Of a stretch of DNA of 47,211 nt, positions 7,097 through 33,204 are shown one piece after another (the first letter of the stretch is position 1; every line of letters starts with the position of its first letter). Below the pieces are notes generated by a model. That model saw only the letters and a program-made list of their open reading frames with translations. It did not search any database and was not told where the DNA came from. The stretch spans positions 1 to 47,211 of IMG/VR virus record IMGVR_UViG_3300022902_000026; one strand, 5' to 3'. A program made the position numbers and the translations under genes. The DNA comes from a virus.

Positions 7097-7097
7097 A

Positions 7098-7590: not shown

Positions 7591-7617
7591 CGAGTGGCGC
7601 GGGGGGAGAGGATTATT

Positions 7618-11010: not shown

Positions 11011-11070
11011 GCCCCCATTCTAGCAGATTTGGCACGGGAAATATTTCTGAATTTAATTCGGGTCAACCCA

Positions 11071-11098: not shown

Positions 11099-11149
11099 GT
11101 ATTTAGAAGTTGAGGGGAACAAAAAGCGAACCCGAACAAGGAAAATAAT

Positions 11150-11320
11150 ATGACTTACTACGAGATCATGCAAGACGCAATCCGCAGCATCCGCAGCAAT
11201 GGAAGCGTATCAGACTGGTCAATCAGGTTGGAGTGCCAGCGAGCAATGATGAGGGCTGGCCATTACCCTACCTTTCAATCCATCGCGGACATGATGAGCG
11301 CAATAAAGGAAGACCTGTAA
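11150..11320 (+). CDS. small hypothetical early protein, 56 aa
   Basis: An ATG at 11150 follows the GAACCCGAACAAGGAAAAT leader shared with 4498-4520. The frame runs to TAA at 11318-11320. The helical protein contains MTYYEIMQDAIRSIRS, SDWSIRLECQRAMMRAGHY and FQSIADMMSAIKEDL. The next start follows 1 base later. No domain is recognised; Met and Ile density suggests a small helical bundle. Confidence 0.55.
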   Translation: MTYYEIMQDAIRSIRSNGSVSDWSIRLECQRAMMRAGHYPTFQSIADMMSAIKEDL

Positions 11321-12978: not shown

Positions 12979-13179
12979 CTACTTTTCTGCGTCCTTGAAA
13001 ATGTCATCCTCTGCCGCGTCCGTCTTGGCCTTCCACGCATTAACGCGCACGAACTCGGCCTCCACAGCCGCATCAAACTCGTCCGGGTCCATGCCCGTAG
13101 CCTTTGCCGCTTCCTTGATTGCGTCGTAGGCGCTGAACAGTTGCCCGCAGATTCCGATAATAGTGGCGATGTTCATCAC
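12979..13179 (-). CDS. small hypothetical protein, 66 aa
   Basis: It begins MMNIATIIGICGQLFSAYDAIKEAAKATG and continues as an acidic amphipathic helix (DEFDAAVEAEFVRVNAWKAKTD). The first 18 residues are moderately hydrophobic. The start overlaps the lipoprotein gene stop. No family is recognised. Confidence 0.5.
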   Translation of the reverse strand: MMNIATIIGICGQLFSAYDAIKEAAKATGMDPDEFDAAVEAEFVRVNAWKAKTDAAEDDIFKDAEK

Positions 13180-13508
13180 TTGCCCTCCTTGATAATCCCA
13201 GCCGATACCATGTCGAAGTAGACCCGGTTCATTGCAGCGAGCCCGATATCAATCCCCGCCTTGGCCTGAGAATATGACGTTTTGATCTTCCGGCACTTGG
13301 TCAGAGCCTCGCACTTTAGCGGGTCCGTGATGCCGTCCGCCTTGCACTTTTTGGCCCGGTCCAGGCAAGCGGCGGCGAGCTGCGGCTCAATCACCGTGCG
13401 ACCGGCGGCGGCGATTGACTTGTGCGATTTGTCGAGCACGGCAGGGAACCCTCCACAGCCCACGGCCAAGAACATCAGCGCCACCAGGGCGACTGTGATT
13501 TTGTTCAT
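13176..13508 (-). CDS. small lipoprotein, 110 aa
   Basis: A lipoprotein signal is clear: MNKITVALVALMFLAVGCGG, with the lipobox Cys at residue 18. The mature part has four more Cys residues (ACLDRAKKC, LKCEALTKC) in a helical region. It would be anchored in the outer or inner membrane of a Gram-negative host. An outer-membrane spanin is one option given the location near lysis genes, but it lacks the usual Pro-rich or coiled-coil content. It overlaps the small membrane protein upstream (ATGA). Confidence 0.7.
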   Translation of the reverse strand: MNKITVALVALMFLAVGCGGFPAVLDKSHKSIAAAGRTVIEPQLAAACLDRAKKCKADGITDPLKCEALTKCRKIKTSYSQAKAGIDIGLAAMNRVYFDMVSAGIIKEGK

Positions 13509-17217: not shown

Positions 17218-18156
17218 TTACTGGTATCTAAACTCAAGAAGCCGAACGGTCGCAGACATTGCAGCCGACGCGAACCCTACTATCTCCAGCTGCGGCGCGA
17301 TAATTTGCTTGTCCGCTGTGGTTACGGTGCCGGCCCCAACGGATGTCCAGCCGGCTATCTCGAGGGGCCACCCGCTGTCAGTGTCATATGCCACGTTACG
17401 AAGATACAACTCTGTTCCACCAGACAGGGGGTCATAGGACCATGAGATATGCAGTTCTTCGTCCGTTCCTGCATTTGTTTGCACGATGTTGCCAGTGGCG
17501 TCATCAAGTCGGACCCACCAAACGCCTGATATTCTGGCGAGGTATCCAACGACGTATTTGGTCACCGTCGCGTCTGCCCAGCGCACCTGGAGGAAGTTGT
17601 CGTTTCCGAAGGTGGTAAACTTTATCGCGTACTTGATCTGGAACCGGCGCTTTCCTGCAGATGACAGCGTTGTGGTGATGCCGTAAAAAGCGCTATCTCC
17701 AACCGAGTCGGCAAGGACCACTCCGTTCGCGGTAGGGGTAATTGTCCGGTTCCCGGCCTCGCCTATTTTAGCCCATGACGCACCAAGCGACAGGGCGGTA
17801 AAGTCGTCCTTAAGGCCCTGATTCACAGCCCCGCCGTCGATGATTACAGAGCCACCGTCTACCGCGTATGCGGCGGCAGGGGCCTGCAGTGCCGTGGCAC
17901 CGAGCGCCGCGCCGGCCGATACCGTGGCCGCTGCTACCGCGTTGACCAGCACCGTATCTGCGGCGGTAACGCCGGTTACCGCAGAGCCGTCTCCGTTTGG
18001 CTGCAGAGCCGTAGCACCCGCCGCCGCGCCTGACTCAACCGTTGCCGCCGCCGTGCTGCCTACAGTCGCGACTCCTGGATCTGGATAGGTCCCGGACAGG
18101 TCGCCGCCCGCTGCTCCTGTTGGTGAACCTCCGCCTGTGTCTCTTCCGTATCCCAT
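17218..18156 (-). CDS. tail-fibre-like protein with Ala-rich repeats
   Basis: From the ATG at 18156 the protein is 312 residues. The N-terminal part has GGDLSGTYPDPGVATVG, a motif seen in many phage tail-fibre and collar proteins. Two imperfect repeats of about 35 residues follow (ATVESGAAAGATALQ, ATVSAGAALGATALQ), then a beta-rich C-terminal domain with many Trp and Tyr residues (FLQVRWADATVTKYVVGY, GVWWVRLDD) that could bind a glycan. The domain has a lectin- or jelly-roll-like texture. It probably forms part of the host-recognition fibre. Confidence 0.7.
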   Translation of the reverse strand: MGYGRDTGGGSPTGAAGGDLSGTYPDPGVATVGSTAAATVESGAAAGATALQPNGDGSAVTGVTAADTVLVNAVAAATVSAGAALGATALQAPAAAYAVDGGSVIIDGGAVNQGLKDDFTALSLGASWAKIGEAGNRTITPTANGVVLADSVGDSAFYGITTTLSSAGKRRFQIKYAIKFTTFGNDNFLQVRWADATVTKYVVGYLARISGVWWVRLDDATGNIVQTNAGTDEELHISWSYDPLSGGTELYLRNVAYDTDSGWPLEIAGWTSVGAGTVTTADKQIIAPQLEIVGFASAAMSATVRLLEFRYQ

Positions 18157-18157
18157 T

Positions 18158-18313
18158 TTAATCCCTTGGCAACCCATTCCATGCCGCCACGGCTTCTGCT
18201 TCCGTCGGTGCCACTAGGCTCCAGCAGCACGTCGGGGAATGAGTGCAGACAATGGTAAAGACCTTCATCTCAAACCCGTTGCTGCGCTCTTCCTCTTCTT
18301 TCTTCCAACGCAC
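18158..18313 (-). CDS. small Lar-like Cys protein, possibly frame-disrupted
   Basis: A GTG at 18313 gives 51 residues including KVFTIVCTHSPTCCWSLVAP and TEAEAVAAWNG, a C-x4-CC plus EAxAAWN pattern typical of small phage zinc proteins. The frame stays coding-like upstream (LDDCPAGHPVRWKK), but no start is found there. The only well placed ATG (18354, after GGAGGGGG) is in another frame and makes 29 residues. A single-base change or a frameshift would restore a protein of about 65 residues. Its stop is immediately before the fibre start. Confidence 0.4.
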   Translation of the reverse strand: MRWKKEEEERSNGFEMKVFTIVCTHSPTCCWSLVAPTEAEAVAAWNGLPRD

Positions 18314-18363
18314 TGGGTGTCCAGCAGGGCAATCATCAAGACTACCGGTGCCATTTCCCCCTC

Positions 18364-19083
18364 CTATCCTGCATACTCATGGATCCCGTAGTAGACATCC
18401 ATGGTTGAACCACTCGAGCCGATGCACGCGCACCTGGCCCACAACTTAGCGCCGGCCACGCATCTGCTCGCAATAACGTCGCTGATTCCACTGTCGTTGT
18501 TGTTTGTTGCGCTGACATACATGACTGCGGTGTAGTCGAACGCGGCAACCTTCGCAGCCAAATCCGCACTCTCTCCGCTAGTGACCTGTACGATGAATGG
18601 GTTCGTGCTGTTGGTGTCCGTTACTAGGTATCGGTGTGGGTCGAACTTCGCGTAACCCGCTTTGACCGGGGTGTCTCCACTGCCCAGAACCTGGACCCAT
18701 GACCCGAACGCGTTGTTCCCAGCGGTCAGAACGAACGGCTGAGTGCCGCCGTCAACCACCTCCGCACGGGTGACCTCGCCGCTCGGAGACCCGGATAGGC
18801 CAAGCCACACTTCCTCGTTGTGGAGGTGCTTTTCAATCTCATGGACGCGGTATGCGAGCGAGTTGGATGTCCCTGCGAGACCATCTGTGACGGCGCTGTC
18901 AATCTTGTCCGTCTCGGCTTGGATCGCGGTCGTGTCAACCTCGATAGCGTCGGCAGTGGCCTGTACTGCCGCAACGTCCGTAATCAGGGTAGTAGTGTCT
19001 GCCTGAATAGACGCGATGTCGGCAAGGATAGTGGCTACGTCGGTTTCACTTGCGTAGTCAGTCGGGTAGTTTCCGTACCCCAT
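18364..19083 (-). CDS. tail-fibre-like protein with N-terminal coiled coil
   Basis: The 239-residue protein starts MGYGNYPTDYASETD, then a coiled coil of 60-70 residues with regular Ile/Val spacing (ATILADIASIQADTTTLITDVAAVQATADAIEVD), then a beta-rich C-terminal domain (VQVLGSGDTPVKAGYAKFD, TAVMYVSATNNND). The opening MGYG is shared with the fibre gene at 17218, suggesting they attach to the same partner. Trimeric fibre architecture is likely. GGGTACGG-type context gives no strong ribosome binding site. Confidence 0.65.
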   Translation of the reverse strand: MGYGNYPTDYASETDVATILADIASIQADTTTLITDVAAVQATADAIEVDTTAIQAETDKIDSAVTDGLAGTSNSLAYRVHEIEKHLHNEEVWLGLSGSPSGEVTRAEVVDGGTQPFVLTAGNNAFGSWVQVLGSGDTPVKAGYAKFDPHRYLVTDTNSTNPFIVQVTSGESADLAAKVAAFDYTAVMYVSATNNNDSGISDVIASRCVAGAKLWARCACIGSSGSTMDVYYGIHEYAG

Positions 19084-19086
19084 GGC

Positions 19087-19479
19087 CTATAGCCCGCGCC
19101 ATTGCTCGCAAAGACCAATGTACGCGTTAACGGACACGTTCGCGTTCTGGTCCGTTCTGATTACCGAAAGCCGCTCGTATGCCGTAACGCCTCGAATTGG
19201 CTCGGCAAACTTCAGACTACCGGCGTCAGGCGTTGAATAGTCCTCAAGCCGGCCCCACTGCTGACCGATGGTATCGAACCCAGCCGCGACCTTGGCCGAG
19301 GTCATGCCTACGACCTTTACGGAACACGCGGCGTTGGCAGACACAAACAGGTGGCCCCACTCGTTCACCTTCCCGTTCGGGACGGAGACGCCTTCTGTGT
19401 TGGTCGTCGGTAGGGACGTGGAGTTGATGGCCGTGTTGAGGGCCAGATACCACTGTGCGGTAGGAACGTGTCGCGACAT
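19087..19479 (-). CDS. virion structural protein, probable fibre or decoration
   Basis: The ATG at 19479 has GGAGG 6 bases upstream and overlaps the end of the glycosyltransferase gene. The 130-residue protein is beta-rich (EWGHLFVSANAACSVKVVGM, SLKFAEPIRGVTAYERLSVIRT) without a catalytic motif. It resembles the small beta proteins found beside tail fibres. It is the first virion-like gene downstream of the glycosylation island and is translationally coupled to it. Confidence 0.55.
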   Translation of the reverse strand: MSRHVPTAQWYLALNTAINSTSLPTTNTEGVSVPNGKVNEWGHLFVSANAACSVKVVGMTSAKVAAGFDTIGQQWGRLEDYSTPDAGSLKFAEPIRGVTAYERLSVIRTDQNANVSVNAYIGLCEQWRGL

Positions 19480-19480
19480 C

Positions 19481-20446
19481 TCATGCCTCCAAAACAAGGG
19501 CAACGGAATTCACAAACCGCTGCCAAGTGTATCGGCTCCGGACTAGTTCGCGATTCTTTGCGGCTAAATCCTGGAGCGTTGTTTCGTCGGCCCTTTGAAG
19601 TGACGCTACCAGTTCCGCGTCTGCTTTGCAATCCCTTTGCAGCGTGTATCCGTGGAAATCTCCGTCAACGTACCCGCAACCGGTGGATAGGACCGGGATT
19701 AGGCCCCATGACATGGCTTCTAGGACTGTGGTGGGGTTCGCGTCGTTGGTCCCGGGCATGATGAGGTAATCGTAGGTGGACGCAATGGCGTGCCCTTCTT
19801 TACCGGCCAGGTCGCGAAATCCATACCCGTGAGTGCCTTCAACGTGCCCGTGCCCAAGGTGGCCAAACGCGGGAACCGAACGTTTCGAGTCCACGGACTT
19901 GATCAAGTCCTCTAGATATTTCGTCCCCTTCTGCTGAACCGTGCACCCAATGTACAGGAACCGGCGCTCACCAGGCGGGTTATAGGACGGTTTTAGGGGC
20001 GGGAAGTATTGCGGATCGATGGCCATGTCCAGGCGGGAAGAATGCACCGTCTGCGTATCCTCTGACCACGTATTAAAGCGTGGAGACTCAGGCGTGTCCC
20101 AAAACCACGGCTTTCCGCAGATAGCAAAATGATGATCAACCTTCCCCCACACATACTCCTGGTCCCGCCTATACTCCTCGCTCCCATTCCAAGGCGCGAT
20201 GCTCACCACCCTCTTCCACGGCGCGACCATGCTCGTTCTAAAGCACTTGCCTGGCTCCGGGTGCGGGTGCCCGATCAGGATATCGTCCGGGCTGTCAGGG
20301 TAGATGCACAGTTCGTCCGCCCAGTCGTAGCACCGGACTTTGTGCCCGCGCTTGCGTAGGCCGGCTGCCAGGTTGTAGCCGATGGACCATGGGGATTTGG
20401 TGCGGCGGTTTCGGTCGTGTGGGTATACTAGGTGGATGGTTGTCAT
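19481..20446 (-). CDS. GT4-like glycosyltransferase (GT-B)
   Basis: From MTTIHLVYPH (ATG at 20446) the protein is 321 residues. The N-terminal Rossmann half is followed by RRFLYIGCTVQQKGTKYLEDL and by NPTTVLEAMSWGLIPVLSTG, the E-x7-E-like signature of GT4-type retaining glycosyltransferases. These transfer a sugar from a nucleotide donor to a protein or glycan acceptor in the cytoplasm. The start is preceded by AAAGGGCCAACC, a motif repeated before other island genes. The acceptor is not known; position next to fibre genes favours virion proteins. Confidence 0.8.
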   Translation of the reverse strand: MTTIHLVYPHDRNRRTKSPWSIGYNLAAGLRKRGHKVRCYDWADELCIYPDSPDDILIGHPHPEPGKCFRTSMVAPWKRVVSIAPWNGSEEYRRDQEYVWGKVDHHFAICGKPWFWDTPESPRFNTWSEDTQTVHSSRLDMAIDPQYFPPLKPSYNPPGERRFLYIGCTVQQKGTKYLEDLIKSVDSKRSVPAFGHLGHGHVEGTHGYGFRDLAGKEGHAIASTYDYLIMPGTNDANPTTVLEAMSWGLIPVLSTGCGYVDGDFHGYTLQRDCKADAELVASLQRADETTLQDLAAKNRELVRSRYTWQRFVNSVALVLEA

Positions 20447-20459
20447 GGTTGGCCCTTTG

Positions 20460-20642
20460 CTAGTAGTGAATATTGATGAAGATTGGCCTAGACTTCGGAA
20501 CCCGCCCAAGTTTTAAGCGCAGTCTCATCCACTCCCAAAACCCAATCCGACCATCCTCCAGCATTTCGAATATGGACAGTCTCGCTCTAGCCCATTCAAT
20601 TATGCGAGGATCCACTGCCTTTCTTGCTTCGGCTCCAGTCAT
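20460..20642 (-). CDS. small hypothetical protein, 60 aa
   Basis: GGAGAAGGGCT precedes the ATG. The helical protein reads EARKAVDPRIIEWARARLS, EMLEDGRIGFWEWMRLRLKLG, and ends with a hydrophobic strand (IFINIHY). It lies between two glycosyltransferase genes. No family is recognised; it may be an adapter for one of them. Confidence 0.5.
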   Translation of the reverse strand: MTGAEARKAVDPRIIEWARARLSIFEMLEDGRIGFWEWMRLRLKLGRVPKSRPIFINIHY

Positions 20643-20656
20643 AGCCCTTCTCCTAT

Positions 20657-21511
20657 CTAAAGTGAATCGATTATTTCCTGAGCCCGGTGCCGGTACGTGT
20701 GGTGAGCCAGAACGTGGGCGCGACCTGCTGCGGCAACGCGGATGGGTGAGAATTCATCCGTCCTGGTCAAGTGGCTGAGACACACCTTCAACTTGGTCCC
20801 GGCATCAAACTCGTTCTCGTAAGTGAGCAGGTGCTTATTAGGTTCAAAATGCCGCCGCACCGATGCGCTGTCAGGACACAGAAGTACGGTTCCACAGCAC
20901 AAAGTTTCCCAATACCGCATCACCAGCAACCCGTCCCCGCCACTGTTCGTGTGATGGACATGGACCTGCAGCCCCGCCACGGCATCCGCGTACTCTTGCC
21001 CGGTCTCGGTCTGAATTACCTCCACCCCTACCGACTCCGCGAACGCCACCCGCTCCGGGAACGGTGACCCGATTATAGCAGCACCGATTTTCTTACCGGT
21101 GGTGGGCTTAAACCGGGTTTCGTCGGCGGCGTAGGGGAGGTACTTGGACCCAGCAAAAAACTTGAGCATGTCCGGGTTCGCAAGGAAGAGTTGGTCCGGT
21201 TTCATCATCTCGACCAGTTTTTTTGTCAGGTCCATGTGGATGGCCGTATCAAAATCCCACATCGCTAGCGGGACACCGGGATAGTTTTCCCTCAACTCCA
21301 GATACTGCCTCTCGCCATCGCCACACTCCATGAACACGATCAAGTCAGGCGTCCACGCCGGGTCAGGCGCGATCTGCTTCCCCGTCTGGTACGTGGTCCC
21401 GTACGGGTGCGCGGTGTGGCCCATGCGGCGTAGGGCTCTGATTAGAGCTGCTCCGGTCTCCCATCCTTTTCCGGGTCCGTTGTTCTGGCGATAGGTTACT
21501 AGGATTTTCAT
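20657..21511 (-). CDS. CgeB-like glycosyltransferase (GT-B)
   Basis: The 284-residue protein has an N-terminal Rossmann half with PDLIVFMECGDGER and LAMWDFDTAIH, then VHVHHTNSGGDGLLVMRYWETLCCGTVLLCPD in the C-terminal half. This is the layout of CgeB-like transferases, where RxxE-x4-G-x-x lies in the donor site. The ATG is preceded by AAAGGGCCAAT. Other members act on spore coats or cell-surface and phage proteins. The substrate here is unknown. Confidence 0.75.
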   Translation of the reverse strand: MKILVTYRQNNGPGKGWETGAALIRALRRMGHTAHPYGTTYQTGKQIAPDPAWTPDLIVFMECGDGERQYLELRENYPGVPLAMWDFDTAIHMDLTKKLVEMMKPDQLFLANPDMLKFFAGSKYLPYAADETRFKPTTGKKIGAAIIGSPFPERVAFAESVGVEVIQTETGQEYADAVAGLQVHVHHTNSGGDGLLVMRYWETLCCGTVLLCPDSASVRRHFEPNKHLLTYENEFDAGTKLKVCLSHLTRTDEFSPIRVAAAGRAHVLAHHTYRHRAQEIIDSL

Positions 21512-21544
21512 ATTGGCCCTTTGGTGCTTCTTGTGCTCGCCCTG

Positions 21545-22045
21545 CTACTTAACCACGACCCGGAACTCGCCCGCAAACGGAATCGGCTTGCCCATGCGAA
21601 AGTTCGGCCCCAACTGCTCCATCAGTTCCTGGACCGAGTACCGGAGCCATCCATCTTCCTCTGTCTTGCGAAATACATGTACCGGGACCGGGATGCCTCC
21701 ACGGGTGCCAGACGGCAGCCCGCTCCTGAACTGGTCGTGGGTCGCTTGCAGGATTCCGAGGCCGTCTCGGGTCGGCTGGATGTGGATGTCGTCGGTCATG
21801 GATACGGTTAGGTATTTTGGCGTGGTGGGCTCAGGGACAGTCACCTCTTCTGCAGACTCTGCCAACACTTTCGCGCAACCCTCAGATACCGTCTCCTTGG
21901 TGAGTACCCATGGCGTAATTCTTTGTTCAATATCCTTGGCCTTCTCCTTCACCGGCTCGCCAATCTGGACCGTCGCCACGACCTCCACCGCTTCCTGCTC
22001 CGGTGGCTTCTTCTGGTCCTGCTTATCTTTCTTGGGGGGTCTCAT
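21545..22045 (-). CDS. hypothetical protein in the glycosylation island, 166 aa
   Basis: The N-terminal 45 residues are Lys/Glu/Pro-rich and look disordered (KKDKQDQKKPPEQEAVE), followed by a mixed alpha/beta domain (YLTVSMTDDIHIQPTRDG, PVPVHVFRKTEEDGWLRYSV). The start overlaps the end of the glycosyltransferase gene at 22042 by 4 bases. No motif for a glycosyltransferase or methyltransferase is present. It could be an acceptor or scaffold protein of the island. Confidence 0.5.
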   Translation of the reverse strand: MRPPKKDKQDQKKPPEQEAVEVVATVQIGEPVKEKAKDIEQRITPWVLTKETVSEGCAKVLAESAEEVTVPEPTTPKYLTVSMTDDIHIQPTRDGLGILQATHDQFRSGLPSGTRGGIPVPVHVFRKTEEDGWLRYSVQELMEQLGPNFRMGKPIPFAGEFRVVVK

Positions 22046-23073
22046 GGTGTTGTCTCCTGGTTCAGAACATCAGACCACGCCGCAATTGCCCTCGCCTTCT
22101 TGGCTTTGTGCGCGGACTTCATTATGTTTGTGATTGATTCTCTGTCGTAGTTATCCAACTGGGTGCTCAAATGGTCAAGGCTGTTGAACTGCATCACTCC
22201 TGGCATGTTCCCAATGTCATACCAATCGGCAAGGTCAATCCACTCATCAGGAACGGGCCCATTTAGATTGTCGCAGAACTCAACCTCATTTAGTACATGT
22301 CGCCCTGTCTGCTTCCACTTCTTAAGCAGTGCCGGCGACGGTACAAACATCGGAATGCCCATGGCGTAGTGCTCAAACGCTGACATAATCGAGATGTTGT
22401 AAGGCAGGTGGATGATGCCTTCCATGTGGGCAAGGTCTGTCCTATCGTACCGGTTCCATACCGAAAACGAGCGGTCAATCTTAACGTGCGTGAACTCGTC
22501 TCGCAACCCGTCGTTGTTTCTATCCCACAGCACCATCTTTTCTGCGCTGCCATCGCACCGAACGCCTTCAAGATAACTGCAAATGGATGGAATGAATGTC
22601 CACTCACCACCGCAGAACGTCTCGCAGTATTTCTTGTCAAATAGGTTGTTCGCGATGAACTTGATTTGCCCTGACCTGTAGCCGGACATTAGGCGGTCAT
22701 TGAGCCACGCCAGACGCTCCGGGTTTGCCTGCTCGCCACTCCCACACGGGTAGTCATAACGGGTGCAGGCGATGGTGTAAATCGGCTTATCGAACTTCTC
22801 GAACAGGGCAGCGAACGCGGGCGGGTACGAGTGGATGAACCCGTCGTAGCCGCTCAACTCGTCCTTGTATCTGGCGTGGAACCCGTCACACATGCCCTGG
22901 TCAATGTGCAGCCAATTGCCCTGGTTAATAATATCTGTCGTGGACGGCTGCTCATTGTTGACCCAAGTGTGGCCAGACATGCAGCACGAATCCACAGTGT
23001 GCCCAATCTCTGGCAGCAGAGTTTTTAGGTCGTGGATGATGCTAATGTGCATGTCTATGTTGAAGAGCTTCAC
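22042..23073 (-). CDS. GT-B-type glycosyltransferase, divergent
   Basis: The 343-residue protein begins with GTG (KLFNIDMHISIIHD) after AGGG. It reads as two Rossmann-like halves; the second contains FSVWNRYDRTDLAHM and the signature HLPYNISIMSAFEHYAMGIPMFVPSP, close to the donor-binding region of GT-B enzymes. Conserved Cys residues (SICSYLEGVRCDG) are unusual for the class. It is translationally coupled to the gene at 21545. The sugar and acceptor are unknown. Confidence 0.65.
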   Translation of the reverse strand: MKLFNIDMHISIIHDLKTLLPEIGHTVDSCCMSGHTWVNNEQPSTTDIINQGNWLHIDQGMCDGFHARYKDELSGYDGFIHSYPPAFAALFEKFDKPIYTIACTRYDYPCGSGEQANPERLAWLNDRLMSGYRSGQIKFIANNLFDKKYCETFCGGEWTFIPSICSYLEGVRCDGSAEKMVLWDRNNDGLRDEFTHVKIDRSFSVWNRYDRTDLAHMEGIIHLPYNISIMSAFEHYAMGIPMFVPSPALLKKWKQTGRHVLNEVEFCDNLNGPVPDEWIDLADWYDIGNMPGVMQFNSLDHLSTQLDNYDRESITNIMKSAHKAKKARAIAAWSDVLNQETTP

Positions 23074-23077
23074 GCGG

Positions 23078-23821
23078 CTACCCTATCTCGTACATCCCAG
23101 CGTGCTCAGAAAAGTAACCGTTGATCGCATCAATAGCCGCAGCCGGGTCCAATTCCAGCCAGTGTCCCACGTTGGCATTCCACGGGAACCACTTCCTCCA
23201 GTCCTTGTTCCGGTAGAACAACCCGTAAGCATCGTCCGCTGAGTAAGCCTTGAGACCTGGGTTCATGTCCTTCCTGATGGCGAAAGCATTGTTATATGTC
23301 AGGTCAACGAGGTCGTACCCGAACTGGTCGAGGATGTCTTTCAGTTTTGACAGGCTCATACCAAAGAAGTGGGAGGCGTCCCATTTGTATCCTTCCGAGT
23401 ACTTAACGGCGAACCGAATCGGAGGCGGGATCTTCTCGTTAATCTCGGCCATGATTACGGTCGGGGAATACGATTTTAGAATAGCCTCCAACACGAAGTA
23501 ATCGTACCCGTCAATGTCCAGGTCAAGAAACGTCGGGTCAGTCCTGTCCGTCACGCTCTTGATCGTGTCTACGACATTGTGCGGCGTGATAGCCTTTCGG
23601 ATTAGGCTTGCAGACTGAGGAAGATGCGCATCCATCTTGTCCGCTTTGGAGTCGTCACATTCGCAGAAGATTGCAACGTCTGCACTTGATATAATGTCAA
23701 GTGGAATATTTGTCTCGTAACTGCATCCGATATCTATTACAAACCGGTCCCGGTCGAACATGCCAAGGTATGACCTAACGGCCTGATCCGTCAGTCTTGT
23801 ATTGTCTGGCATCACTTGCAT
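23078..23821 (-). CDS. FkbM-like methyltransferase
   Basis: The 247-residue protein has FVIDIGCSYETN (SAM-binding motif I), VAIFCECDDSKAD (acidic strand end) and TFLDLDIDGYDYFVLEAIL, the D-x-D-x-x-G block typical of FkbM-type methyltransferases. The family O-methylates sugars and small molecules. It overlaps the methyltransferase gene upstream by 10 bases. Two possible starts, ATG at 23821 and 23812, differ by three residues. Sugar methylation in the island is the simplest role. Confidence 0.7.
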   Translation of the reverse strand: MQVMPDNTRLTDQAVRSYLGMFDRDRFVIDIGCSYETNIPLDIISSADVAIFCECDDSKADKMDAHLPQSASLIRKAITPHNVVDTIKSVTDRTDPTFLDLDIDGYDYFVLEAILKSYSPTVIMAEINEKIPPPIRFAVKYSEGYKWDASHFFGMSLSKLKDILDQFGYDLVDLTYNNAFAIRKDMNPGLKAYSADDAYGLFYRNKDWRKWFPWNANVGHWLELDPAAAIDAINGYFSEHAGMYEIG

Positions 23822-24345
23822 AGTCCTTTGCTGAGGAAATCCATGTGGTCTTGTCTTGCCCAGATGGTGGTATGCGGGCCTCCATCTTCAGGCACATAAG
23901 TAGCAGCAGCCATTCCCATCAGGCTGGCAGCTGGATATGTTGCAGTCCAGTTGAAGGATTGTGTCTCTGTGTCATGGCATACGATAATCGGAGCAACGCA
24001 GAACCCGTACAGCATCTGAGCGTGTCGGCTGTCCCCATGACCATCAACAAACACTAGGTCATACTGTCTATTAGGGAACCGCTTTGGAAGTTCAACCATC
24101 CACCGGCACGGGCCTAAAGCGATTACCTTATCCCAGTGTGGGCAGTCTCCAACGCTCTCGGACACTCGCTCCAGCCATGCCAGGTCGTTAGACTCAACCG
24201 ATACAAGTGACTTGCACTTCTCTGCGAACAGAGGCGTGGACCCCCACCCTATCCCGAACTCTAGAACGTTGCTGATCGTGCCCGTATCAAGGATCATTTC
24301 GAGAACGGGTCTGTGGGAGTGAACGTTTTTTATGTCAAGAGACAC
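23812..24345 (-). CDS. class I SAM-dependent methyltransferase
   Basis: The 177-residue protein starts at GTG with GGAGG 9 bases upstream. It shows VLEFGIGWGSTPLFAE (motif I), LVSVESNDLAWL (acidic motif II) and YDLVFVDGHGDSRHAQML (catalytic strand), the core of a compact class I methyltransferase. The motif set resembles small O-methyltransferases of polysaccharide clusters. It overlaps genes on both sides. Confidence 0.7.
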   Translation of the reverse strand: MSLDIKNVHSHRPVLEMILDTGTISNVLEFGIGWGSTPLFAEKCKSLVSVESNDLAWLERVSESVGDCPHWDKVIALGPCRWMVELPKRFPNRQYDLVFVDGHGDSRHAQMLYGFCVAPIIVCHDTETQSFNWTATYPAASLMGMAAATYVPEDGGPHTTIWARQDHMDFLSKGLCK

Positions 24346-25162
24346 GGATTGAATCCTCCATTCTTACAAGCCAGCGATACATATATAGGCAATCGTAATC
24401 GAACCCGTTTACCTTCTCTGCGTACAACTCATCCGTGAGCATGCCGGGGTCGAAGTCCTCCCACGAATCCAGCACCACAGCCGGGAAGTATGGAAGTGAA
24501 TCCCAAAGCAGGGACCTAGTAACCACCGGCACAGAACGCAGGTAAAGCGCATCCCAAGCCCTGTGGGTGTCTATTCCGTTACCGTTGGGCGCAAGCGTGA
24601 ATCGTGACGTGGCTATGTCGCACAAGTAGGCCTCATAACTCTTCCACGGCTCAAGTTTTGACCCTGACGCGGACAGGCACGCCATTCTCTCCACCGCGTT
24701 GGTAGCCACGTTGAAGTTGGCCACCACGTTTCGCCACTTGCCAAGGTGTGCGTCCATGACTTTTCTCATGGTATAGCAGCCCTGTTTTGGCGTGCCCTCG
24801 TTCTTGATGCCTATTGGGATTGGTGTAATTCGCGGGTCTTCTTGGGTGACGTTGATCGCGAACCAGTGACTGATCGGATACCTGTCTAGCAGCGCGGCCC
24901 GTGCTTCATCTATCGGGTAGTCGCTGTTTCCTGTGACGAGAACGAATGAATCCGTAATCTCGCTTGAGTGTCTGCAAAATTTCTCTACATAGTCGGTCTT
25001 GCAGTATCTCCAATCGGTTGGCGAGTGCGGATTGTCTGTCGGTTCTCCGTAGTTTACAGACACGCCGCATATATTAGAGAACGTGTTGCACGTCAGATAT
25101 GGCCAGCCATAAGGAAATGTCCCGTGCCATGTATATGGTATGGCGTTGATTGACGGGCTCAT
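24335..25162 (-). CDS. exostosin-like glycosyltransferase (GT47-type)
   Basis: The 275-residue protein has SRFTLAPNGNGIDTHRAWDALYLRSVPVVTRS, the highly characteristic donor-site region of exostosin-like and related GT-B enzymes, with PYFPAVVLDSWEDFD behind it. The N-terminal half (DSFVLVTGNSDYPID) forms the first Rossmann domain. Related phage and bacterial proteins act in surface glycan assembly. It overlaps both neighbours by a few bases. Confidence 0.75.
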   Translation of the reverse strand: MSPSINAIPYTWHGTFPYGWPYLTCNTFSNICGVSVNYGEPTDNPHSPTDWRYCKTDYVEKFCRHSSEITDSFVLVTGNSDYPIDEARAALLDRYPISHWFAINVTQEDPRITPIPIGIKNEGTPKQGCYTMRKVMDAHLGKWRNVVANFNVATNAVERMACLSASGSKLEPWKSYEAYLCDIATSRFTLAPNGNGIDTHRAWDALYLRSVPVVTRSLLWDSLPYFPAVVLDSWEDFDPGMLTDELYAEKVNGFDYDCLYMYRWLVRMEDSIRVS

Positions 25163-25788
25163 TTTTTCTCACCAATCAGCAAAAAGTCAACGTAATAATC
25201 CCGGTCAAGTTCAACTTCATAAAGTGGATCAATGTACGTAAACTGACCTCGCATCCACTCCAGTGTAGGCATAATTGGATGCAGCCCGCTCCCGACTGTT
25301 CCAACCGGGAACGTAGGCTCGCCAAAGACCAGAATACCGCCAGGCTTCAGCGACTCGATCAAGTTAGACACGACCTTTGCCGCGTCCTGACAATGCGGAA
25401 GGACGTTGATGCAAATGGCCATGTCATACTCACCGGGCCTGATGAAGTCCTCACCACGCGCCGTGACCAGTTCCGGATCCTTGAACCATTCAACCGGCTT
25501 ATTGTATGAGCAGTACGGATGGGATAGGTACTTGTCAAGAAGCGGGTCAACTAGCGTGAACGATTCCATTTCAGTGTGCTGGGATATGATCTTGCTCTGC
25601 GTGAACGGGCCGCACCCAATCTCCAGCACCTTGTCATATTTGCGGTCTGGGATGGCTTCGTAGTTGTTGAACTCTTCCAGGTAATATTTAGAGCGGTCAT
25701 CATACGAAGATGTGTGTTTGACCATCCAGCAGTGCTCTTCCCCTGCCTGCGCTTCTTCCCATTGGGCTTGTGTGGCCAGGACCGTCAC
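25159..25788 (-). CDS. class I SAM-dependent methyltransferase
   Basis: From the GTG at 25788 the protein is 209 residues. VLEIGCGPFTQSKII (motif I), FTLVDPL (motif II), YDMAICINVLPHCQD (motif IV) and LKPGGILVFGEP (post IV) are textbook for the Methyltransf_11/25 fold. The GTG overlaps the stop of the 25788 gene by one base, and a GAGGTGG stands 8 bases upstream. The PLYEVELDRDYYVDFLLIG tail is typical of sugar or small-molecule O-methyltransferases. Confidence 0.8.
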   Translation of the reverse strand: MTVLATQAQWEEAQAGEEHCWMVKHTSSYDDRSKYYLEEFNNYEAIPDRKYDKVLEIGCGPFTQSKIISQHTEMESFTLVDPLLDKYLSHPYCSYNKPVEWFKDPELVTARGEDFIRPGEYDMAICINVLPHCQDAAKVVSNLIESLKPGGILVFGEPTFPVGTVGSGLHPIMPTLEWMRGQFTYIDPLYEVELDRDYYVDFLLIGEKK

Positions 25789-27623
25789 TACTTCACCACC
25801 TCGCCCCAAACCCCATCCGGAAAACCAGCCGCCTTCCGAGTCAAGAACAACCGCTCTCCATGCTCCCCATTGTACTGAGAATAACTACGCATCTGAGTCT
25901 CGTCCCGTTCCGCCCCCTGCCAGTCATGCTTGAACACGATGTCAGGCGCATCCACAAACACCCCGTCCAGAATCGCCTTCTGCCCCAAGTCGTCGTCACA
26001 GAACAGGGAGATATAACCCGGATACCACATCCCGCCCACCTTCTCAGCAAAGGCACGGGTCAGGATCGCGATAGTGGGCAGCCATCCCTTTTTGTCTGCG
26101 TTCACTCCCGGGGGCGTTCCATCGTTGACGTGGATCAGCGCGGGCTTGGTCACGTCCTGGATCTTGTCCAGGATAAGGAGGTCCCAATCCTGCGGGGGCG
26201 TTACGTCGTCGTGGACCTGGACTAGGACTTGGCCGGTGCTGACCCACGCGGCGCGGTTGTAGGCGTCCACGTTGCCGCGATTGTCTAGCCCAATGCGAAC
26301 CTGTGCCTGTACATTGTCAAATAGTTGGCTTGGTCTTGGCGCGGAAGTCCCTGGCCTATTTGTTGGGTCGTCATCGTCAATGCTGAAAATATACTCCAAC
26401 GTCACCTCGCCGCTAGCCATCTCAACCCACTTGTCATGAGCAGCCAACGCCATCTCTGGCCTGCCCCGGGTCGCGTGCAGCAAACTAATCTTGATCTCGC
26501 TCAAATCCACCGCTCCACCGCCATGGTCGCCCCGTGGAACAGCCGCAGGCTCCAGACCCTGCCCTGATGGCGGAACTGGTGCCGGGGCTGCTACGGGCTG
26601 CTGTGGGGCCGCGTCCTTGTCCACCTCGTACTTGTACTGTCCCCAGTGCCCCGTCTTTGGCCGCGTTGCCAAATAGGACACGTATCCAAGTCGCCGCCCA
26701 CGCTCGCAGAACGCCCAGTCCTCAGAGTTAACGATCAGGTCCCCTGGTGCATTCGGGTGCAGGGCCAGGTTAGGCATGAAGATGGGGACGTATCCAGGGG
26801 CCGGGATCCTGCCGAGGCACTCCCACTTGAGCATGGTTTCCCACACGTCCTCGACCACGTCCCGGTGGTATGCCGTCATACCGGATCCGACCACGGGAGA
26901 AGAGAACGCCCCGTCCTGCCCGATTGGAGTTGTGATGGCATCGCCGAACATGGATGCGATGCCTTGACCTATGACCTTTTTTGAAATGATGGCACCGACA
27001 GTCCCGCGCGTTTCGGCGGCAAGACGGCACAGGTGCAATGGGTCACCCTCATATCCGGTCTCATGGCTGGCGTTGACCCACTCGATATCGTGGTCAATCA
27101 TCAGGAGCACTTCATTATCCGATTCAAGGAACTGTTTCGCGACAGTGGCCCGGGTCCGGTCAATGAGCGCGTCATCTCCCGGGGTCATGGCGGTAACCGG
27201 CCACACGTTCGGGCTGAACATCTTTGAGACGTCCACGCCTTTGCCGGCCAGGTGCCGAACGGCAGCAGCTCCAGCCGCGCGCTCAGAGAAAAAGGCCATC
27301 ATCTGGTTACTGAGCGCGTGAGTCTGTTTGATAATGCCGCCGTACCCAAACAGGGCGTAGGTTGTGGCCGGTCCACCGAAGTCGCCCCACTTCGCCCGCA
27401 TCGCAGCGAAGTCTACCTTGACCGGCGCCTTGATCGGCGGCTTTGGCTCGGCCTCGTTCGGCATGATGACGATTTCTTTTGACGACGGACGGACCTTTAA
27501 ATCTTCCGCTAGTTTCTTGGCCTCTTCCACATCAGGGAACGCCCACTCTTTCGGTGACATCCACGCGCCTGTCTTCTGCAGCTTCCACACACGCCATCCC
27601 ATCGGGGCCGTTTGATCGGTCAT
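25788..27623 (-). CDS. two-domain GT-A glycosyltransferase
   Basis: The 611-residue protein joins two GT-A domains. Domain 1 (about residues 85-335) has MIDHDIEW (DxD at 177-179) and SEDWAFCERGRRLGY (300-314), as in GT2-type enzymes. A Pro/Ala-rich linker (340-370) leads to domain 2 (about 375-600) with FSIDDDDP (416-419), QVHDDVTPP (471-473) and FCDDDLGQ (543-545). A small N-terminal domain of 70 residues precedes them. Two active sites in one chain suggest a linked two-step sugar addition. It is the largest gene of the island and heads the coupled chain. Confidence 0.75.
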   Translation of the reverse strand: MTDQTAPMGWRVWKLQKTGAWMSPKEWAFPDVEEAKKLAEDLKVRPSSKEIVIMPNEAEPKPPIKAPVKVDFAAMRAKWGDFGGPATTYALFGYGGIIKQTHALSNQMMAFFSERAAGAAAVRHLAGKGVDVSKMFSPNVWPVTAMTPGDDALIDRTRATVAKQFLESDNEVLLMIDHDIEWVNASHETGYEGDPLHLCRLAAETRGTVGAIISKKVIGQGIASMFGDAITTPIGQDGAFSSPVVGSGMTAYHRDVVEDVWETMLKWECLGRIPAPGYVPIFMPNLALHPNAPGDLIVNSEDWAFCERGRRLGYVSYLATRPKTGHWGQYKYEVDKDAAPQQPVAAPAPVPPSGQGLEPAAVPRGDHGGGAVDLSEIKISLLHATRGRPEMALAAHDKWVEMASGEVTLEYIFSIDDDDPTNRPGTSAPRPSQLFDNVQAQVRIGLDNRGNVDAYNRAAWVSTGQVLVQVHDDVTPPQDWDLLILDKIQDVTKPALIHVNDGTPPGVNADKKGWLPTIAILTRAFAEKVGGMWYPGYISLFCDDDLGQKAILDGVFVDAPDIVFKHDWQGAERDETQMRSYSQYNGEHGERLFLTRKAAGFPDGVWGEVVK

Positions 27624-27937
27624 GATGCGGTAATAATCCTTTTGCTGTTGGCCTTCTTCATGTACTCGGCCTGTTTTGCCAGGGGCTTAAGTTGGGCCAA
27701 TTCCTGCTTTGCGATGTAGGCGCCGACCGCCATCATGATTCGGGTTGGGCCGTCGGAACTAGGCGGGATACCGTCGAACGTCTGCTTGATGTCGGCATAG
27801 ATGCAGAACGCTCGCAGGCCCGCGTATTCCTCTGCGTCCTTATCGGTGAGCCCGTCCCCGTTCATCGCCTTCATGTGGATGGACATGGCTTTCTCGGCAG
27901 ATTCGCGTACGCCGTCGACGTCGTCTGGTTTCTTCAT
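27620..27937 (-). CDS. hypothetical helical protein, 105 aa
   Basis: It starts at an ATG behind AAAAGGGCCAAT, the island's recurring ribosome binding motif, and overlaps the double glycosyltransferase start (ATGA). The helical sequence (ESAEKAMSIHMKAMNGDGLTDKD, AFCIYADIKQTFD, AYIAKQELAQLKPL) has no known signature. It is the first gene of the glycosylation island after the terminator. An accessory subunit of the glycosyltransferase is possible. Confidence 0.5.
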   Translation of the reverse strand: MKKPDDVDGVRESAEKAMSIHMKAMNGDGLTDKDAEEYAGLRAFCIYADIKQTFDGIPPSSDGPTRIMMAVGAYIAKQELAQLKPLAKQAEYMKKANSKRIITAS

Positions 27938-28012
27938 ATTGGCCCTTTTGCGCCGCTAGAACGCGACTAAGGAAAGGTAGCAAACAGGAACCGGCCCTGT
28001 CAAGGTTCAATC

Positions 28013-28083
28013 AAAAAAGCCCCGGTCTCCACAAGGAAAGGGCCTTAACCAGGGTGGAGGCTACCCCCACAAAGGAGACCGGG
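28013..28083 (-). terminator. rho-independent terminator after the tail-tip genes
   Basis: On the minus strand CCCGGTCTCC (28083-28074) pairs perfectly with GGAGACCGGG (28030-28021) and is followed by GC and six Ts (28018-28013). The loop is long (43 bases) and may hold a second hairpin. It lies just after the stop of the 28093 gene and before the glycosylation island, whose transcription would need read-through or its own promoter. Confidence 0.75.
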
Positions 28084-28092
28084 ACCTAAATC

Positions 28093-29298
28093 TTAAACGG
28101 CTGTTTGTGGTACCTTGGCCTTGACCGTAAACCCGTGGACGTAGAGCCCGCCAGAGTTGCAAGACCCGTAAATGTCAATCTTATTTGTGCGGGCTGCCTT
28201 CTCTGTTGCTCCGGATTCGTCTTGGGCAGAGTTGATGATAATGTCCGTGATCGCCACCCATGCTGGAATGTTTTCGGTAACCGATACGGTTGTGTTTGAC
28301 CATCCACTCTCCGCGTATAGGATACCGTTGACGTGCGCGTTCGTGGTTGATGCCAGCGCGTGAAGTTCGTAATAGACCGTGGTGCCGCCTGCCGTATCTT
28401 CCGGGCCTATTCCTTGGCGGTATCCGTGGACATAAACCCCTGGAGTGTCGGCGTTGCGAGAGGTGACGGCGTGGTCCATTAGGTTGACGCGGGTGTTTGG
28501 GCCATCTGCTGACGACTCCACAACCATGCCCAGTTGGTCTCCGGGGCTTGTACCAGCCTGGCTAAAACCTGTTGCTGTCCCCTGTGCGGCCCATGTTGCT
28601 GCCGGGGGGATAACGCTAGTACGTATTTCGTGCAGTCTTGCGCGGCAATCCTCCGCTATGTCGCTTAGCACAGGAGAAGATGGCTTCGCCTTGGCCGGGT
28701 TTACATAGCCGTGGTTTAGATCGCTGTAAAGCGTAAGGGCAGGCGCAGCGTAAACCACAACATCAACCGGTCTTGCTCCACCGTACACGCTTATTGCGGC
28801 ATGGTAGTTTGAGTTGCTTACGTTACCTCTCGGTAGAGATATCCTGTCAACTATCAAGTCATTATAGTGTGCGCCATTTGTTGCATTTGTTTCGTACTCT
28901 CTAAAAACAGAATTACCGCCGCCGAACGCGTTTGTTGATATGTACGTGTTGCTCCAGTCTGCCCAGTTCAGGCTATTGATTGGCGGCATATGAGCGACAT
29001 ACGCAACGTAGCTTGTAGCCTCTCTGTGCATGTCTGGAGTCATAAACGAATACAGCGGGGAAATTGCATTGGCTGCATCCGGGTATTTGTATGATCCTGT
29101 TGCCTGGCTAGTTGCCATCGCAAACGCAATATGCGCCGTATTGCCTAGTATGTTATTTATCTGGCTGGCAACAATTGCGGGAGCAAGAGCAGAGCATCCC
29201 ATTCTCCTGGACGCGTTTTCTACATCGCTCGTCCAGTTTTCGGTTTCTCCGGTTATGTCCGTGTTTGACCAATTTGGGTTTGTTGATGTTGACGTCAT
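28093..29298 (-). CDS. virion structural protein, tail tip or fibre
   Basis: The 401-residue protein is Ser/Thr/Asn-rich and beta-rich without catalytic motifs (NWADWSNTYISTNAF, VYYELHALASTTNAHVNG, GLYVHGFTVKAK). It is more A+T-rich than the head genes. Its position after the tail hub and before the terminator is that of a tail-tip or receptor-binding protein. The ATG overlaps the stop of the upstream gene, and AAGGGCCAATCACTG precedes it. Confidence 0.6.
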   Translation of the reverse strand: MTSTSTNPNWSNTDITGETENWTSDVENASRRMGCSALAPAIVASQINNILGNTAHIAFAMATSQATGSYKYPDAANAISPLYSFMTPDMHREATSYVAYVAHMPPINSLNWADWSNTYISTNAFGGGNSVFREYETNATNGAHYNDLIVDRISLPRGNVSNSNYHAAISVYGGARPVDVVVYAAPALTLYSDLNHGYVNPAKAKPSSPVLSDIAEDCRARLHEIRTSVIPPAATWAAQGTATGFSQAGTSPGDQLGMVVESSADGPNTRVNLMDHAVTSRNADTPGVYVHGYRQGIGPEDTAGGTTVYYELHALASTTNAHVNGILYAESGWSNTTVSVTENIPAWVAITDIIINSAQDESGATEKAARTNKIDIYGSCNSGGLYVHGFTVKAKVPQTAV

Positions 29299-29864
29299 CA
29301 GTGATTGGCCCTTATGCCAAAGTACTGCATCTCGGCCCTGCTTCCACTTGTTCCGTTTGATGCAACAACCGTTAAAAATATCTCGTTTATTGTGCTCTCT
29401 TTTGTATACACCATATCAATGTCATTTGATGCCCATTTCCACCAAGTTGACGAGGTTATTATTCCGGCAGAATTGAAGTTTGCCCATGGAAATGCCTTTG
29501 TTGAGAATGAATCAGCAAACCCATCGTATGGTTGCCTGGACGATATATACACCCTCCACGCAACGTCTGATATTGTGTCGCCGCTTTTTCTTGTGCAGGT
29601 GTCGAATGTAACCGAACTAAACCCATCTGGAATATACATTGGCCCAAGAACGGCAACAACGTGCTGTACTGTTGTACTATCTTGCGTCTCCCAATATGGA
29701 AAGCACGGCTGCCCTCGCCTTGGAGCGCCTACGAGTAACTTGTAGTTATTAATCGACGCAGCCATGTCAGAATAGACGCGCACGGACAGGGGGTCGTCTG
29801 CGCCAGTCTCAACTGTCGTAACCGGTCTATACTGATGATTTGCATATGCGTCCAAGATTGCCAT
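29298..29864 (-). CDS. virion structural protein, tail tip
   Basis: The 188-residue protein is beta-rich (VVAVLGPMYIPDGFSSVTFDTCTRK, DVAWRVYISSRQPYDG, EIFLTVVASNG) and overlaps the stop of the large tail protein and the start of the next gene by one base each. Stop-start overlaps of this type tie the three genes into one assembly unit. A jelly-roll fold is possible. No enzyme motif is seen. Confidence 0.6.
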   Translation of the reverse strand: MAILDAYANHQYRPVTTVETGADDPLSVRVYSDMAASINNYKLLVGAPRRGQPCFPYWETQDSTTVQHVVAVLGPMYIPDGFSSVTFDTCTRKSGDTISDVAWRVYISSRQPYDGFADSFSTKAFPWANFNSAGIITSSTWWKWASNDIDMVYTKESTINEIFLTVVASNGTSGSRAEMQYFGIRANH

Positions 29865-32740: not shown

Positions 32741-33121
32741 TTACGAATGAGGGGCCCACCACTTGCACTCTGGTATTTTTTGGACATATTCAATAAACAG
32801 GTCTTCTTTGTCGGGAGGAATGTTATCATTCCATTCTGCTGACGTCTCAATGTACCCCCGTCCGAATTTGGCCTCGCCTGTTGAGTAATTCGACTCAAAA
32901 CATTCGCAGGTTATTTTAACGCCACCCATGTGGTGATTTATCGCACATGTTGCATTGTATCCTACCAATCCGCAATCCCAGGATCGCGACCACTCAAACA
33001 TATCAGGCTTCGATGCGCTAAGATAGGAACATCCATTTATGGTAGACGTTTGGTCATCTACGCCACCGCAGCCCCCAGCCAGAAGAGCCGCCACGCACAA
33101 AACGAGAAGAATCTTTTCCAT
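32741..33121 (-). CDS. lipoprotein encoded inside the tail module, 127 aa
   Basis: From the ATG at 33121 (GGAGGTAAGGGCC upstream), residues 1-18 form a lipoprotein signal (EKILLVLCVAALLAGGC) with Cys at the cleavage site. The mature part has six further Cys residues (DCGLVGYNATC, TCECF, ECKWW), probably in disulfides, so it acts outside the cytoplasm. Phage lipoproteins in such positions often block the receptor and stop superinfection, as shown for T5 Llp. That role is inferred from location and signal only. It sits between the distal-tail gene and the hub gene. Confidence 0.7.
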   Translation of the reverse strand: MEKILLVLCVAALLAGGCGGVDDQTSTINGCSYLSASKPDMFEWSRSWDCGLVGYNATCAINHHMGGVKITCECFESNYSTGEAKFGRGYIETSAEWNDNIPPDKEDLFIEYVQKIPECKWWAPHS

Positions 33122-33204
33122 GGCCCTTACCTCCATACCTTACAGGAATGGTGAATGGTAGAGCCTGTCAGTTCAAGGATATTGAAGGAGTCCAACATTA
33201 TCAG

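Follow-up and report, generated by a model that had tools for sequence, protein, structure and literature searches.

A glycosyltransferase and methyltransferase gene island within the tail-gene block of an uncultivated phage

Virion glycosylation has been described for Che8, Corndog, and Myrna (Freeman et al. 2023, as cited in PMC12363180 and PMC12619734), and the products of such mycobacteriophage modules are reported to put glycans on the capsid and the tail tube. In Corndog, gp35-38 comprise an O-methyltransferase plus glycosyltransferases (GTs) and are encoded between the portal and the protease (PMC4351075). Che8 gp108 reads as a fusion of a GT-A domain and a methyltransferase (MT). Within the literature that was searched, virion glycosylation by phage enzymes has been shown experimentally only in a few mycobacteriophages. 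In PBCV-1, A075L, which belongs to family GT114, is a xylosyltransferase that helps build the glycan of the major capsid protein VP54 (PMC11571054). A075L belongs to the chlorovirus capsid glycan enzymes together with A064R, which has two GT domains and an MT, and the MT A061L; A064R and A061L methylate a terminal sugar.

Here we describe an island of ten tightly packed late genes within the tail-gene block of an uncultivated phage, in a window of 47,211 nucleotides, by which we mean the whole stretch of DNA that was analyzed. Like the Che8 and Corndog modules the island encodes soluble phage GTs with MTs, like that of Corndog it is in the virion operon, and Che8 gp108, which reads as a GT-A joined to an MT, resembles close relatives of the GT-A encoded here. 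The island, however, is larger, with six GT domains and three MTs, it has a GT114 enzyme, a CgeB-type GT-B and a tandem GT-A, and it lies between tail and fibre genes unlike either module. When it was compared with Che8 gp108-110 in a three-sequence search no significant similarity was found (best E = 0.004). PBCV-1 and the island each pair a protein of two GT domains with MTs, but PBCV-1 is a virus of a eukaryotic alga, unlike this phage, and A064R carries its MT in the same protein whereas the tandem GT-A has its MT as a separate gene; a search of the tandem GT-A protein against the PDB gave no sequence match to A064R.

The coordinates are given in Table 1.

Table 1. Genes and signals of the island
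Feature	Length (aa)	Positions	Strand	Basis or remark
Intrinsic terminator		28011-28087	(-)	RNA fold; between tail gene 28093-29298 and island
Leader AAAGGGCCAA		27939-27948	(-)	Before ATG of first island gene
First island gene, no family match	105	27620-27937	(-)	Leader AAAGGGCCAA before ATG
Tandem GT-A protein	611	25788-27623	(-)	phrog_14945, invariant residues, AlphaFold/Foldseek, L009 orthologue
Class I SAM methyltransferase (Methyltransf_23)	216	25159-25809	(-)	Pfam PF13489
GT114 (A075L-like, exostosin-like) GT-B, predicted inverting	275	24335-25162	(-)	phmmer, catalytic residues
Probable class I SAM methyltransferase (weak)	177	23812-24345	(-)	Pfam, motifs by eye
FkbM-like methyltransferase (weak)	247	23078-23821	(-)	Pfam PF05050, S-SM2 relative
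Putative divergent GT-B	343	22042-23073	(-)	Motif SAFEHYAMGIPMFVPS, by eye only
No family match, K/P/E-rich N terminus	166	21545-22045	(-)	Pfam and PHROG searched
Leader AAAGGGCCAA		21513-21522	(-)	Before CgeB-type gene
CgeB-type GT-B	284	20657-21511	(-)	Pfam PF13524, L009 orthologue
Leader AAAGGGCCAA		20449-20458	(-)	Before GT4-like gene
GT4-like GT-B	321	19481-20446	(-)	Weak Pfam, NDANPTT-LEA motif, L009 orthologue

The island holds five GT proteins (six GT domains, counting the putative GT-B), three MTs and two proteins of no assigned family, all ten on the minus strand, and the ORFs, strand, and gene order given in the first-pass annotation matched on re-examination. On one side it is bounded by the strong terminator that follows tail gene 28093-29298, on the other by the fibre genes (17218-19479). 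That the island follows a terminator, as had been claimed, was borne out by a hairpin with a 14-bp stem and then U6 (-38.5 kcal/mol, z -3.2). The core junctions are -4, +4, -10, -11, -4, -22, and -4 bases, with the overlap of 4 bases between the first gene and the next and that of 22 bases between the tandem GT-A and Methyltransf_23 genes, and these start/stop codon overlaps show a co-translated unit. Bigger gaps are those of 33 bases (21511/21545), 210 bases (20446/20657), and 155 bases ahead of the first gene. The window has exactly three copies of the leader, all of them directly upstream of an island gene. The GC content of the genes in the centre is 0.505-0.523 compared to 0.574-0.594 in the three GT genes that are conserved in a related phage (see below). 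None of the island proteins has a membrane segment (maximum 19-residue hydropathy 1.28), and by the same measure the island has no membrane proteins as in a serotype-converting gtr operon, neither a GtrA flippase nor a membrane GT or other GtrA/GtrB-like partner. Nucleotide-sugar biosynthesis genes were not found.

In the tandem GT-A protein, domain 1 spans about residues 70-335 and domain 2 about 373-600. In the DxD, xED, and C-terminal His of domain 1 (D177-H-D179, S300-E-D302, H326), the residues D177, D179, S300, E301, D302, and H326 do not vary among 32 sequences; in domain 2, which matched the glycosyltransferase family phrog_14945 at 2.5e-7, HDD (471-473), CDD (542-544), and H566 are conserved in two sequences. 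Structure prediction, which the first-pass annotation had proposed for each GT, gave a confident fold for domain 1 (AlphaFold, mostly pLDDT 80-97) but not for domain 2 (only about 30-66) or for the putative divergent GT-B (31, single-sequence model). The best Foldseek matches of the tandem model were COLGALT1, mimivirus R699, K4CP, and LARGE1 (5e-11 to 1e-5), enzymes that likewise have two GT-A domains per chain, but the identity is only 8-13% and the TM-scores are about 0.2, which are low since neither domain 2 nor the way the domains are arranged is well predicted. The likeness suggested by the model is taken as one of fold only and homology is not claimed. Five other, unrelated phages encode close relatives of domain 1 as fusions with SAM-MTs, several of them in terminase, portal, and capsid neighbourhoods, and another phage has capsid genes alongside an MT, a GT-A, a sulfotransferase, and an APS kinase. 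The idea that the whole GT-A family is confined to virion blocks was rejected: pooled scans of the neighbours in the wider family gave head proteins but also four DNA primases, and a distant relative has a single GT-A copy in the early region.

The gene called an exostosin-like GT in the first-pass annotation encodes a GT-B glycosyltransferase, and its label can be refined to a homologue of A075L. It matched the structures 8q8i, 8avq, and 8asa by phmmer (5e-20) over residues 71-264, which is most of the GT-B fold, with 30% identity to A075L in 189 aligned residues. The catalytic base Asp73 and the donor-binding Asn148, Arg158, and Arg208 of A075L are present as D81, N149, R159, and R201, all unchanged in three more homologues from phages, and E171, N195, and G196 correspond to E177, N202, and G203. 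The acceptor-pocket residues Thr112 and His122, however, are replaced by K120 and Y130, so the acceptor sugar likely differs from that of A075L. The rest of the island gene set was absent from 59 other distinct viral GT114 loci, and GT114 alone was therefore rejected as a marker of such islands.

The CgeB-type protein matched PF13524 at 6.4e-19 (68.8 bits, cut-off 25). It had no tblastn match in phage records, and its profile found nothing in the PDB and no relatives in genome contigs, where neither a bacterial source nor a host was found. The GT4-like protein matched PF00534 at 0.02 (14.8 bits, under the cut-off) and PF13692 at 0.05, its profile gave only E > 0.3 against the PDB, and it has the conserved NDANPTT-LEA motif with E-x7-E present as D-x7-E both here and in the related phage. 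Its start had been called at TTG 20509, but ATG 20446 is more likely because the homologue in the related phage starts there and the ATG has the leader. Among the three MTs of the first-pass annotation, Methyltransf_23 is above the Pfam cut-off (2.1e-8, 34.5 bits against 27) and the other two are weak. The 177-residue protein matched Methyltransf_16 at E = 0.23, showed LEFGIGWGST and later LVFVDGH by eye, and had no PDB match. The name FkbM for the third did not hold up well, with E = 0.022 and 15.3 bits for PF05050 under the cut-off of 22.7 and no BLAST match to the FkbM domain of L002, one of the five phages with MT-fused GT-A; it is 31.5% identical to a protein within a glycan-biosynthesis cluster of cyanophage S-SM2. 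The divergent GT-B was called on its motif, and we found for it no Pfam or PHROG family, no PDB match, no homologue in phages (tblastn), plasmids, or genome contigs, and no usable model. GT or MT families could be given for most members, but not for the two proteins of 105 and 166 residues, which matched nothing in Pfam or PHROG. Overall, four assignments are strongly supported, namely the tandem GT-A protein, the exostosin-like GT, the CgeB-type GT, and one MT; the evidence for the other GT and MT assignments is moderate to weak, and for the divergent GT-B there is none.

A search for the same island in related phages, also proposed in the first-pass annotation, found one in IMGVR_UViG_3300037137_002282 (L009), in the same place between a tail gene and the fibre genes. 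The tandem GT-A (L009:9959-11482, 39.5% over 549 aa), CgeB-type (L009:13982-14809, 39.8%), and GT4-like (L009:14806-15729, 37%) genes are at the ends of both islands, in the same order and position and with motifs intact, and these orthologues show that the island is not a chance assembly. The centre is replaced: L009 has an unknown 190-aa gene, a Methyltransf_24, a WbqC (PF08889, 2.6e-25), and another unknown, and lacks the GT114, the putative GT-B, the FkbM-like gene, and the two other MTs. A NodB-like deacetylase reading of L009:11461-12033 was dropped as it had no Pfam support. No phage record matched the island by Megablast, and four of the five GT proteins had at most weak, partial relatives in 50,697 phage records. 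Together with the GT114 loci that lack the rest of the set, this makes it fair to call the combination of genes distinctive, as had been said, but systems of this kind are already known.

How, then, is the island to be read? Probably it encodes a late, soluble pathway in which sugar nucleotides of the host are used to assemble a methylated oligosaccharide on virion proteins of the phage itself. What argues for this is the late-operon position kept in L009, the MT-fused GT-A relatives in head blocks, the capsid glycan made with A075L, and the Che8 and Corndog precedents; catalytic motifs are intact in most of the GTs and MTs, which are soluble and encoded in or next to virion genes. It is unlikely that the LPS, O-antigen, or capsule of the host is altered instead, as in serotype conversion or superinfection exclusion. 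Phage GTs are generally known to do so (see the 2004 review of Markine-Goriaynoff, as cited in PMC12619734), and WbqC in L009 and the S-SM2 polysaccharide cluster tie such genes to polysaccharides, but the island proteins are all soluble and have no GtrA/GtrB-like membrane partner, their place beside the tail genes is kept between relatives, and Corndog gp35-38 and the MT-fused relatives are found among head genes. Lysogenic conversion is also unlikely since no integrase was found among the ORFs scanned.

Somewhat harder to uphold is the suggestion that these are horizontally acquired sugar genes exchanged between phages, with no single target and acting on any host glycan. The centre that differs in L009 and in GC, and the GT114 homologues scattered over the 59 loci without companion genes, would fit such cargo, which we nevertheless consider quite unlikely: the three GT genes keep their order, position, motifs, and 37-40% identity between two phages whose portal proteins share only about 40%, and the overlapping codons show co-translation. 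Sugar transfer to modified bases of the phage DNA, an alternative in the first-pass annotation, has lost ground and appears very improbable. In T-even phages, among others, phage GTs do attach sugars to hydroxylated bases (Pyle 2024, as cited in PMC12619734), and the phage described here has DNA-modifying genes of its own, DpdA-like (8191-8901), QueD (8867-9223), and an N6/N4 methylase (3454-4386). These, however, are early genes on the opposite strand, 7-deazaguanine modification requires no sugar transfer, a single base would not need as many as six GT domains and three MTs, and A075L, the known case for GT114, works on a protein-linked glycan. No dCMP/dUMP hydroxymethylase, thymidylate-synthase homologue, or TET/JBP was seen in the early ORFs scanned, very short ones excepted, and it is this, with the separate DpdA/QueD pair, that makes DNA glycosylation unlikely.

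The methylated virion glycan put forward in the first-pass annotation is accordingly the best-supported reading, its conjectural parts being the acceptor and the glycan. The soluble enzymes, expressed late, would draw nucleotide sugars and SAM from the host and would decorate tail and/or capsid proteins, a virion protein being the presumed acceptor. A core chain shared by both phages may be made by the conserved GTs at the ends (tandem GT-A, CgeB-type, and GT4-like), with outer sugars and methyl caps added by the lower-GC centre that can be exchanged, here GT114, the putative GT-B, and three MTs; the L009 centre, with WbqC, another MT, and unknowns, could have the same role, so that different centres would give different terminal structures on related phages.

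More tentatively, it is possible that the virion operons of tailed phages include modular assembly lines for glycans, each with this conserved core and an exchangeable outer cassette. If so, the cassette would hold GT114, several MTs, or WbqC and elsewhere a sulfotransferase with an APS kinase, related phages would show different methylated or sulfated termini on their particles, and the system would be a phage counterpart of the chlorovirus capsid-glycan system with which it shares the GT114 family. The GT114 gene offers an enzyme that can be assayed and that has a relative of solved structure. The core-plus-cassette island and the MT-fused GT-A relatives in head blocks suggest that particle glycans may be far commoner and more elaborate, and such glycans bear on phage adsorption, decoy and receptor interactions, stability, and immune recognition.

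In the window, which at 47,211 bases is the full IMG/VR record (a record length that does not imply genome completeness), the early genes lie on the plus strand and a long late operon lies on the minus strand. Ten late-operon genes between the strong terminator and position 19481 form the island, with tail genes on one side and fibre-type genes on the other, so that its earlier placement inside the virion block and after a terminator holds with corrections. The first-pass annotation had most genes linked by overlaps of 1-10 bases; the core is tightly packed, its junctions being overlaps of 4 to 22 bases or a gap of 4 bases, and the last three genes are set apart by gaps of 33 and 210 bases. 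AAAGGGCCAA was found exactly three times in the window, always just ahead of an island-gene ATG (27937, 21511 and 20446), and because it precedes the ATG at 20446 the last glycosyltransferase (GT) gene was started there, in agreement with its homologue in the related phage L009. Elsewhere, the sole tRNA found was tRNA-Gln (TTG; 5526-5600, plus strand). Two pairs of small near-identical ORFs (2199-2600 and 4694-5086, plus strand) enclose a radical-SAM gene (2588-3457, phrog_9298) and an N6/N4 DNA methylase gene (3454-4386), apparently a duplication. Two small minus-strand proteins have a lipoprotein-like signal and Cys, one amid the tail genes (32741-33136, LLAGGCGG) and one at 13176-13508 (FLAVGCGG).

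Features of the window and of viral contig L034
Contig	Feature	Position	Strand	Evidence
Window	Terminase	45139-46698	-	
Window	Portal	43498-45138	-	
Window	Tape-measure-like protein	33984-36083	-	protein of distantly related phage LS06, 38% over 246 aa
Window	Tail-tip protein	29864-32731	-	
Window	Tail genes	29298-29864, 28093-29298	-	
Window	Intrinsic terminator	28011-28087	-	-38.5 kcal/mol, z -3.2
Window	Island genes, no assigned family	27620-27937, 21545-22045	-	
Window	Tandem GT-A	25788-27623	-	
Window	Class I methyltransferase	25159-25809	-	PF13489, 2e-8
Window	Exostosin-like GT	24335-25162	-	A075L, E=5e-20
Window	Methyltransferase-like	23812-24345, 23078-23821	-	weak
Window	CgeB-type GT	20657-21511	-	PF13524, 6e-19
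Window	GT4-like	19481-20446	-	below cut-off
Window	Fibre-type genes	19087-19479, 18364-19083, 17218-18177	-	
Window	DpdA-like	8191-8901	+	30-37% to phage proteins, several annotated DpdA-like
Window	QueD/PTPS	8867-9223	+	1.4e-21
L034	Capsid	5190-6257		PF13252, 4e-52
L034	Methyltransferase	8197-8742		
L034	GT-A	8712-9464		
L034	Sulfotransferase	9454-9996		PF13469, 7e-7
L034	Sulfotransferase-like	10115-10780		by eye; no Pfam match
L034	APS kinase	10725-11282		PF01583, 6e-16

The protein said to have two GT-A domains has them in tandem, the second as a probable GT-A domain. A large phage family includes domain 1, and D177, D179, S300, E301, D302 and H326, which in GT-A enzymes correspond to the DxD motif, the xED motif and the C-terminal His, are invariant in 32 of its members. 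For domain 2 there is a match to a glycosyltransferase family of PHROG (2.5e-7). The AlphaFold model (31 rows) was good for domain 1, most blocks having pLDDT 80-97, and poor for domain 2. The top solved Foldseek matches, COLGALT1, mimivirus R699, K4 chondroitin polymerase and LARGE1 (E 5e-11 to 1e-5), all carry two GT-A domains per chain, but with TM-scores of about 0.2 they back the fold class only. The exostosin-like gene matched three PDB entries of PBCV-1 A075L, the beta-xylosyltransferase that helps make the N-glycan core of the major capsid protein VP54 and that founded family GT114 (PMC11571054). Mapping of the published A075L residues showed that Asp73, the catalytic base, is retained together with Asn148, Glu177, Arg158 and Arg208, which bind the donor, and with Asn202 and Gly203, and that the acceptor contacts Thr112 and His122 are altered; from this pattern the enzyme should be an inverting UDP-sugar GT, predicted to be active on an acceptor other than that of A075L. 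GT114 homologues are common in IMG/VR, with 200 confirmed places (80 loci kept, L070-L149, 59 distinct). These places in uncultivated viral contigs outnumber the 178 family homologues counted in PMC11571054. As for the other claimed enzymes, the CgeB-type member of the GT4/CgeB-like pair and one of three methyltransferases have Pfam matches, the remaining three genes show weaker likeness, and no family assignment was reached for the supposed divergent GT-B (22042-23073).

Judged by its genes, L009 (IMGVR_UViG_3300037137_002282, 45.3 kb) is a phage related to that of the window, with identical gene order and about 40%, 33% and 34% identity in portal, terminase and tail tip. The proposed search of related phages found its island at the same place, with the core conserved (tandem GT-A 39.5% over 549 aa, CgeB 39.8%, GT4 37% identity) and the centre replaced by an unknown gene, Methyltransf_24, a WbqC protein (2.6e-25) and a second unknown gene. 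In the window the GC of the non-conserved centre (22042-25809) is 0.505-0.523 against 0.574-0.594 in the three conserved GT genes; since it ranges from 0.467 to 0.612 across other measured genes, the low value counts as supportive only. The distant relatives LS06 and L058 have no GT at the island position, and a third, L059, has one small GT-A-like gene behind a tail gene and no island of this type. The L009 tail-tip protein (4545-8246) has near its N terminus about 270 extra aa, LamG-like by reading (WHHFAVTWDGTTIILYLDG), absent from the window protein.

The domain-1 family is fused to a methyltransferase in five other viral contigs (L002, L010, L013, L015 and L016). The L002 fusion, with an FkbM methyltransferase, lies between terminase and portal, and those of L010 and L016 come after the capsid gene, directly so in L010. 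In L018 and L034 a separate methyltransferase adjoins the family gene close to capsid genes. The sulfotransferase and APS kinase of L034 also adjoin capsid and small virion-type genes, and this row (5190-11282) may possibly serve a sulfated virion glycan. Surroundings in the wider GT-A family are mixed, four neighbours being DNA primases, and the LS06 copy lies in the early region.

That the enzymes modify the host surface is possible, but the island has no membrane component and lies late, on the tail side. Glycosylation of phage DNA is unlikely because the scanned early ORFs yielded no base-hydroxylating enzyme and because a probable 7-deazaguanine DNA-modification pair is present separately, namely the overlapping DpdA-like DNA transglycosylase and QueD genes (8191-9223). 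A cargo locus without function does not fit, as conservation is ordered and motifs are intact. The closest demonstrated systems are those of mycobacteriophages: the virions of Che8, Corndog and Myrna carry glycans (Freeman 2023, as cited in PMC12363180 and PMC12619734), and in Corndog the genes for portal and protease have three GT genes and an O-methyltransferase gene lying between them (PMC4351075). Che8 gp108 has, by eye, a GT-A followed by a SAM-methyltransferase domain, a pairing also seen in L010 and L015, but Che8 gp108-110 have no significant sequence homology to the island proteins. The capsid-glycan enzymes of PBCV-1 are a further parallel, A064R having two GT domains and a methyltransferase and A061L being a second sugar methyltransferase (PMC9614988).

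The best reading is that the island is a late soluble pathway making a methylated oligosaccharide on virion proteins, and the earlier proposal of such a function is thereby supported in part. Its glycan machinery is well supported by enzyme families and motifs, operon position, and a core conserved while the centre is exchanged; virion proteins are the putative target. Host nucleotide sugars would supply the chain built by the island enzymes, with sugar identities and reaction order that we infer, virion proteins would be the acceptor, and the exchangeable cassette may vary the outer sugars.
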